From Brevundimonas subvibrioides (GTDB taxonomy: Bacteria > Pseudomonadota > Alphaproteobacteria > Caulobacterales > Caulobacteraceae): DNA of 64,000 nucleotides. Within the stretch, counting starts at the first letter, position 1. Each line of letters opens with the position of its first letter. The position numbers and the translations under genes were made by a program. Location of the stretch: positions 1-64,000 of the forward strand of contig NCEB01000012.1 of assembly GCA_002280475.1 (NCBI GenBank), written 5' to 3'. The notes under the pieces were generated by a model. It made no database searches. It was not told the origin of the DNA and saw nothing but the letters and a program-made list of their open reading frames with translations. Below, piece by piece: positions 14,075-60,517 of this stretch.

Positions 14075-14979
14075 ATGTTCTATCTTCTGTATCTCTACTA
14101 CGCCGACGTGGCGCAGGATTACCCCCTGCTGAACCTGATCCAGTATCAGACGGTGCGGGTCGCGCTCGCCATGGCCACGGCCATGATCGTCGCCGTGGCG
14201 ATGGGCAGCCGCTTCATCGCCTGGATGCGGGTCAAGCAGGGCAAGGGCCAGCCGATCCGCGCCGACGGGCCGGTCAGCCACCTGTCCAAGGTCGGCACCC
14301 CCACCATGGGCGGCCTGATGATCCTGGCCGGCATCGGCGTGGCGGTCTTCCTGTGGGGCGACCTGACCAATCCCTACATCTGGATCGTCTCCGGCGTGAC
14401 GGCGGCCTTCGGTGTCCTGGGCTTCATCGACGACTACGCCAAGGTGACGTGGGCTTCTCCAACGCGGTGAACCTGACCGACGGGCTGGACGGCCTGGCGA
14501 TCGTGCCAGTGATGATGTCGGCGGCGGCCTTCGGGATCATCGCCTATCTGGTCGGCAACTTCATCTTTTCGGACTACCTCGGCGTCCACCATGTGCCGGG
14601 CTCCGGAGAACTCGCCATCTTCTGCGCCGCCATCATCGGCGGGGGCACGGGGTTCTTGTGGTACAACGCCCCGCCGGCCAAGATCTTCATGGGCGACACC
14701 GGCTCCCTGGCCCTGGGCGGTGCGCTGGGCTCGATCGCCGTGGCCACCAAGCACGAGCTGGTCCTGGGCATCGTCGGCGGCCTGTTCGTCGTCGAGGCGG
14801 CCTCGGTCATGATCCAGGTCGCCTACTTCAAGGCCACCAAGAAGCGCATCTTCCTGATGGCCCCGATCCATCACCATTTCGAGAAGATGGGCTGGCCGGA
14901 ATCGACTGTGGTCATCCGCTTCTGGATCGTCGCGGCGATGCTGGCCCTGATCGGGCTGTCGACGCTGAAGCTGCGGTGA
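14075..14979 (+). pseudogene. mraY: mraY (phospho-MurNAc-pentapeptide transferase) with internal deletion and frameshift
   Basis: MraY makes lipid I from UDP-MurNAc-pentapeptide and undecaprenyl phosphate. From ATG 14075 the protein is normal through [10 protein letters not shown] (residues ~118-127), then reads WASPTR and stops at 14470. The rest of MraY continues in another frame from about 14453: [20 protein letters not shown], then [27 protein letters not shown] and the end at 14979. Compared with E. coli MraY from memory (360 aa), about 65-70 residues spanning two membrane helices are missing at the junction, and the 905-bp span is not a multiple of three. All catalytic motifs flanking the gap are intact. 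Either a real lesion in a normally essential gene or an assembly/sequencing error. Confidence 0.92.
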
Positions 14980-14990
14980 GGATTCTTCAT

Positions 14991-15170
14991 TCGATCCCCT
15001 CTCCCAGAGGGAGAGGGCTTGAGCCTCCAAGAGCGGAGCGATTGGCAAGGCGAAAGGGTGAGGGGTTTTGCCCTCACCGGCTCACACGGAAACCCCTCAC
15101 CCTTTCGCGCGGGTCCGATCGCCTTCGGCTCTCGGGCGCTCAAGCCCTCTCCCTCTGGGAGAGGGTTCGA
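14991..15170. repeat. ~180-bp inverted-repeat element between mraY and murD
   Basis: Left arm from 14996 (CCCTCTCCCAGAGGGAGAGG, then CTTGAG, later CGAAAGGGTGAGGGGTT) pairs with a right arm ending at 15166 (AACCCCTCACCCTTTCGCG ... CTCAAGCCCTCTCCCTCTGG). Arms are about 75 bp with mismatches in the middle, around a short centre near 15080. It fills the whole mraY-murD gap. The end of the right arm, GGGAGAGGG at 15158-15166, stands 3 bp before the murD ATG. Confidence 0.85.
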
Positions 15171-16675
15171 TGATCCCCGTCCCCGGCTTCGAGAACCAGC
15201 GCGTCGCCGTCTTCGGGCTGGGCCGGTCCGGACTGACCGCCGCCCGCGCGCTCAAGGTGGGCGGCGCCGTTCCGATCCTCTGGGACGACGGCGTGTCCGG
15301 CCGCATGCAGGTGGAGGCGGAAGGCTTCGCCGTCGAGGACCTGACCGTCGCCGACTGGTCGGGATTCGCCGCCCTGGTCCTGTCGCCCGGCGCGCCCCTG
15401 ACCCACCCCAAACCGCACTGGACCGTGGACAAGGCCCGCGCCGCCAGCGTCCCCGTCGTCGGCGACATCGAACTGTTCGCCCGCGCGATCGCCGCCCTGC
15501 CTGACGACCAGAGGCCCCGGGTCGTCGCCATCACGGGCACCAACGGCAAGTCCACCACCACGGCCTTGATCGGCTGGGTCCTGAAACAGGCCGGGCTGAC
15601 CGTCCACATCGGCGGCAACATCGGCATCGGCGTGCTGGCGCTGCCGGAGCTCACGCCAGACGCCGTCTATGTGATCGAGGTCTCCAGCTATCAGCTGGAC
15701 CTGACCACCACCTTCGCCCCCGATGTCGCCATCCTGACCAACATCAGCCCCGACCACCTGGACCGTCACGGCGGCATGGAGGGCTACGTCGCGGCCAAGA
15801 CGCGGCTGTTTCAGGCGCTCGGGCCGGAGGCGGTGGCGCTGGTCGGGGTGGATGAGGCGGAGGGGACGGACATCGCGGAGTGGCTCGCAGTCGGCGGCGT
15901 CGCCGGCTGCACTGTTTCCACTTCCGCTCATCCCCGCGAAAGCGGGGACCCAGTGCTTTCGCTTGAGCACGATGGTCTGGACCCGTTTCTGGACTCGCAC
16001 CGGTCGTCGAAGTGGCCAAAGAACTGGGTCCCCGCTTTCGCGGGGATGAGCGGAAAGTTGGAAGCGGCGGGCCGAGTGATCCGGGCGAATGGCGAGCCCG
16101 TCCTTGACCTCACTCCCGCCCGCTCGCTGCCCGGCCGCCACAACGCCCAGAACGCCGCCTTCGCCTATGCCGCCGCCCGGGCGCTGGGTGTCGCGCATGA
16201 CGTCGCGGTCCAGGGCCTGATGACCTTCCCGGGCCTTGCCCACCGCATGGAGACCGTCGCCCACCTTGGCCCTGTGCGCTTCGTCAACGACTCCAAGGCC
16301 ACCAACGCCGACGCCGCGCGCCAGGCCCTGATGTCCTATCTGAGCAGCTTCTGGATCGCCGGCGGTCGTGCCAAGGACGGGGGGATCGAGGACCTGCGTG
16401 ACCTCTTCCCCCGCATCGCCAAGGCCTATCTGATCGGCGAGGCGGCCGCCGATTTCGCCGCCACCCTGGGCGACACCCCCCACGTCGCCGCCGGCGACAT
16501 GGCCACCGCCGTCGCCCTCGCCGCCGCCGACGCGCGAGCTGCCGGCGGCGACCCGGTCGTCCTCCTCAGCCCCGCCTGCGCCAGCTTCGACCAGTTCCTG
16601 GATTTCGAGGCGCGCGGAGAGGCGTTTCGCGCCGCCGTTCTTAACCTTGGGGCTACGCCTTTCGTTCAGGGTTGA
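15170..16675 (+). CDS. murD: UDP-MurNAc-L-Ala:D-Glu ligase MurD with in-frame repeat-derived insert
   Basis: 501 aa, longer than the usual ~450-470. Adds D-glutamate to UDP-MurNAc-L-alanine. N-terminal Rossmann region VAVFGLGRSGLTAARAL, ATP loop TGTNGKSTTT near residue 122, and SYQLDLTTTF / NISPDHLDRHGGMEGY are intact. Between EWLAVGGVAGC and AAGRVIRANGEPVLDLTP lies an extra segment of about 46 residues (SAHPRESGDPV ... NWVPAFAGMSG) encoded by a palindromic element at 15920-16058. The insert keeps the frame. Start at ATG 15170; the only Shine-Dalgarno-like sequence is the arm of the upstream repeat. ftsW follows 6 bp downstream. Confidence 0.93.
   Translation: MIPVPGFENQRVAVFGLGRSGLTAARALKVGGAVPILWDDGVSGRMQVEAEGFAVEDLTVADWSGFAALVLSPGAPLTHPKPHWTVDKARAASVPVVGDIELFARAIAALPDDQRPRVVAITGTNGKSTTTALIGWVLKQAGLTVHIGGNIGIGVLALPELTPDAVYVIEVSSYQLDLTTTFAPDVAILTNISPDHLDRHGGMEGYVAAKTRLFQALGPEAVALVGVDEAEGTDIAEWLAVGGVAGCTVSTSAHPRESGDPVLSLEHDGLDPFLDSHRSSKWPKNWVPAFAGMSGKLEAAGRVIRANGEPVLDLTPARSLPGRHNAQNAAFAYAAARALGVAHDVAVQGLMTFPGLAHRMETVAHLGPVRFVNDSKATNADAARQALMSYLSSFWIAGGRAKDGGIEDLRDLFPRIAKAYLIGEAAADFAATLGDTPHVAAGDMATAVALAAADARAAGGDPVVLLSPACASFDQFLDFEARGEAFRAAVLNLGATPFVQG
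15920..16058. repeat. Palindromic element (HPRESGDP/WVPAFAGM type) inserted in frame in murD
   Basis: About 139 bp. Left arm from 15921 (CTTCCGCTCATCCCCGCGAA, AGCGGGGACCCAGTG) is the near-perfect reverse complement of the right arm (16023-16057, CTGGGTCCCCGCTTTCGCGG, GGATGAGCGGAAAG). Each arm also has an internal CCCCGC-GAAA-GCGGGG stem. A second copy of nearly the same length is at 60381-60517. In this frame it is translated as part of MurD. Confidence 0.9.
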
Positions 16676-60380: not shown

Positions 60381-60517
60381 CTTCCGCTCATCCCCGCGAA
60401 AGCGGGGACCCACACCTTAAGTGAGGCAAGATCCTTTGGGATCATCATCCCGGACCCAGACAGAGGCCAGGACGCCCAAAGCACTGGGTCCCCGCTTTCG
60501 CGGGGATGAGCGGGAAG
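60381..60517. repeat. Second copy of the murD-type palindromic element, at the 5' end of the DNA glycosylase gene
   Basis: Left arm CTTCCGCTCATCCCCGCGAA, AGCGGGGACCCA; right arm CACTGGGTCCCCGCTTTCGC, GGGGATGAGCGGGAAG. 137 bp against ~139 bp for the murD copy; the arms agree almost base for base and the interior differs. It fills the gap between DUF3253 and the glycosylase and supplies the only upstream sequence for the latter. Confidence 0.9.

Follow-up and report, generated by a model that had tools for sequence, protein, structure and literature searches.

A 205-bp gap in the mraY gene of a draft Brevundimonas genome is very probably a local assembly error

The mraY gene in the draft genome G000 is interrupted by a clean gap that we regard, with little room for doubt, as a local assembly error, and the mraY of the organism itself is very probably ordinary and of full length. 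The window, that is, the whole stretch of 64,000 nucleotides analysed, is a part of contig C25 (72,997 bp) of this draft, which comprises 75 contigs and 3,130,391 bp, with a completeness of 95.14% and a contamination of 0.65%. Compared with G050, which together with G037 was the closest relative for mraY among 60 genomes of the genus, the gene is 205 bp short (68 codons and one further base), and its reading frame is shifted as a result (Table 1).

Table 1. Coordinates of the mraY lesion (window positions) and of the other clean gaps (contig positions in G000)
Feature	Location	Strand	Description
mraY 5' half	14075..14449	+	125 native residues; the same frame then stops at 14468-14470
mraY join	14448..14449	+	205 bp of the relatives' sequence missing; CG common to both edges
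mraY 3' half	14449..14979	+	other frame; corresponds to G050 MraY residues 194-369
aspS gap	C22:3482-3487		-79 bp, frameshift
lexA gap	C22:13997-13998		-114 bp, in frame
dnaE gap	C22:38922/38923		-62 bp, frameshift
flagellin gap	near C72:127469		-32 bp, frameshift; two unaligned bases between the flanks

The break described in the initial annotation is indeed present in the given sequence, where two frames with 68 residues missing between them are found instead of a single uninterrupted MraY frame of about 368 residues. Residues 1–125 of the G050 protein align at 98% and residues 194–369 at 99% identity, while residues 126–193 have no counterpart; the earlier estimate of 65–70 missing residues was therefore accurate, and the alignment to the relatives' mraY that had been proposed as a check yields the exact length of 205 bp. 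In the frame of the 5' half, residue 125 is followed by six off-frame residues and then by the stop codon. The join contains no Ns. A GGTG microhomology had been suggested for it, but relative to G050 the edges share only CG (14448-14449), and the retained AC would be gone if the join had been made at GGTG.

Both halves belong to the known MraY family (phospho-N-acetylmuramoyl-pentapeptide-transferase, TIGR00445) and occupy its usual place in the dcw cluster, but the gene differs from known MraY in the 68 absent residues and the shifted frame. The 3' half matches positions 147-321 of the TIGR00445 profile with 254.7 bits, above the family cut-off of 192.05, while the 5' half alone (positions 2-85, 82.8 bits) falls below it and positions 86-146 are covered by neither. 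The flanking motifs had been described as intact, which holds for the kept halves; the missing part, however, is itself MraY sequence, which aligns along two solved MraY chains (8g01 and 4j72), so that its loss should abolish the function of the protein. Its hydrophobicity suggests that two membrane helices would be lost with it. As it is written, the gene could not yield a whole enzyme.

The dcw genes flanking mraY, which apart from mraY were named from their translations and gene order with no family search, have open frames and stand in the usual order. A second mraY elsewhere in the genome, which had also been considered, finds no support in the assembly: a search of the genome with the PF00953 profile gave one match, and a full-length MraY query recovered the two halves and nothing more (residues 1-128 at 96% and 194-368 at 99% identity). 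Nor did the missing piece turn up elsewhere in the genome, the listed matches being the two flanks and stretches of 15–32 bases.

Palindromic sequences were also noticed in the window. An element of about 134 bp (window 15922-16055), with 41-nt arms that are 95% complementary, is situated inside the murD ORF (15068-16675), which holds it in frame, so that the translation of the element is part of MurD; the compared murD stretch of G050 does not have it. We take this element to resemble the palindromic elements inserted in frame into Rickettsia genes. The same arm sequence occurs as a pair once more, at 60388-60509, and the spacer between mraY and murD (14997-15165) contains another long inverted repeat with 41-nt arms, 90% complementary and separated by 87 nt.

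The sequence missing from our draft is present in nearly all genomes of the genus that have an mraY match. A match to mraY was obtained in 130 of 131 genomes, the one without a match being G082 (80% complete), and in 128 of these 130 a single unbroken match runs across the join site. In G054 the gene is split over two contigs, and G000 is the only one of the 130 with a gap inside a contig. One of the 128, G093, is counted on the basis of a spanning copy of only 76% identity, while its 89% copy starts at the end of a contig, 16 bases before the right edge of the gap. The named record JACPDR010000015.1 (L014) also starts 17 bases before this edge, and L014 and G093 may possibly be one genome. 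The contig breaks near the site in G093, G054 and L014 suggest, few as these cases are, that assembly is troublesome here. The 76% copy of G093 (C50:414-1454, DNA identity to G050) is a second mraY-like stretch beside the 89% copy, which starts where contig C40 ends; either its contig is foreign to the bin or G093 truly has two such genes.

The same signature recurs at other places of the draft, including indispensable genes. We compared 425,488 bases of G000 (the window included; about 14% of the draft) with 731,512 bases of G050, using mechanical, uncurated ORFs of G050, 255 of which reached 75% identity or more in G000 with their best piece. Besides mraY, four clean gaps were found in these approximately 425 kb, in aspS, dnaE, lexA and a flagellin gene; their flanks abut, overlap by up to six bases or leave two unaligned bases between them. 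The missing pieces of dnaE and lexA have an unbroken match in all 11 relatives examined and that of aspS in 10 of the 11 (G022 gave no match); the flagellin piece is spanned in all 11, near full length in ten and by a partial match in G083. Another copy of dnaE or aspS in G000 was not detected by DNA similarity, which would miss a very divergent paralogue. In the reverse reading, in which 242 ORFs of G000 were compared with G050, no gap both shifted the frame and had abutting flanks.

In-frame differences of at least 8 aa were seen in both directions (30, 38, 8, 9 and 9 aa for G000; 44, 10, 16, 30, 29 and 8 aa for G050), and only the 38-aa lexA gap was counted among them because its piece is present in all 11 relatives. 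Since differences of 8–44 aa occur both ways, the lexA gap carries less weight than the four others. A 30-aa in-frame difference in aspS was left uncounted, as the matches of other relatives break at the same place, and so were four further splits (G050 C1:123955, C1:134653, C1:170436 and C2:30760), where the net length change is positive in G000. In the reverse reading, the 94-aa ORF at C32:25119 (net -14 nt with a change of frame, flanks not abutting) was not accepted as a clean gap, nor were the splits at C72:162870 (net -1) and C25:0-1880 (net +708, frame unchanged); all other splits in that direction are those of mraY, aspS and dnaE themselves. Among other apparent lesions in the ORFs inspected, most stops fall within upstream extensions or within ORFs of apparently wrong frame.

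A cell without working MraY, DnaE (DNA polymerase III alpha) and AspRS together is not viable. Given the clean gaps in these jointly indispensable genes, most of the gaps are very probably located in the file and not in the cell, and this extends to the mraY gap, which bears the same signature. This favours the assembly or sequencing deletion that the initial annotation had placed first among its possibilities and speaks against its heading, which presented the deletion as one of the organism. At mraY and the other sites the flanks would have been joined directly and 32–205 bp of real sequence dropped; such joins would result if contig ends were butted together during gap closing or scaffold merging, and we infer that the assembly pipeline made them. 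A run of 18 Ns at C22:87682-87699 suggests scaffolding, with the reservation that N also stands for masked sequence in this collection.

Several points count against the assembly-error reading. The five joins contain no Ns and their edges share only 0–6 bases, which is too few for an ordinary k-mer overlap join; five gaps is a small number; and the lexA gap is in frame, as are differences also seen in G050. We found no common trend over the five gaps that would point to GC content (78% for the missing piece of lexA, 75% for flagellin and 60–65% for the other three) or folding as the cause, and 25-mers shared with 13 relatives, considered as a source of a tangle, are not concentrated at the mraY join. 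Local assembly errors without support from reads are described in PMC7111523, according to which public databases end up with incomplete or incorrect genes where such errors go uncorrected. These errors in draft metagenome-derived genomes are of the same kind as ours, namely wrong short joins and incomplete protein-coding genes; they were, however, detected there from the reads, whereas our case is drawn from comparison with relatives.

The main alternative, to which we give only a slim chance, is a real and very recent deletion in the sequenced lineage or in a part of its cells that was caught in the consensus. The clean, N-free mraY join is what would be expected of a deletion at short microhomology, and peptidoglycan genes are not essential everywhere, certain of them being reported as dispensable in a planctomycete (PMC10632474). 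The same kind of gap in dnaE and aspS, genes with no other copy by DNA similarity, nevertheless stands against it, as do the open frames of the neighbouring dcw genes and the kept mraY halves, which display no decay. The identity of these halves to G050 is 93% at the DNA level and 98–99% at the protein level, so that they were under strong selection until now, and with such protein identity any loss would be very recent. Still more improbable is a Caulobacterales lineage truly devoid of a working MraY, its other core genes decaying, that survives by a bypass or as a dying subpopulation. That the fragments retain MraY function, either as two separate proteins or through joining by a frameshift, deserves hardly any credence even though both lie in open frames, and programmed rescue had been judged very unlikely in the initial annotation as well; neither scheme can restore 68 residues that are wholly missing here and whose coding piece was not found elsewhere in the genome.

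If the mraY gap is an assembly error as we propose, its importance is mainly one of data quality. The draft is listed as 95.14% complete, yet it contains silent gaps in mraY, dnaE, aspS, lexA and flagellin within the approximately 14% compared; if this rate holds genome-wide, a few tens of genes would be affected, by a rough extrapolation from five cases. Considered as biology, the mraY lesion is very probably no real feature of this organism, and claims of gene loss based on this draft would mislead.
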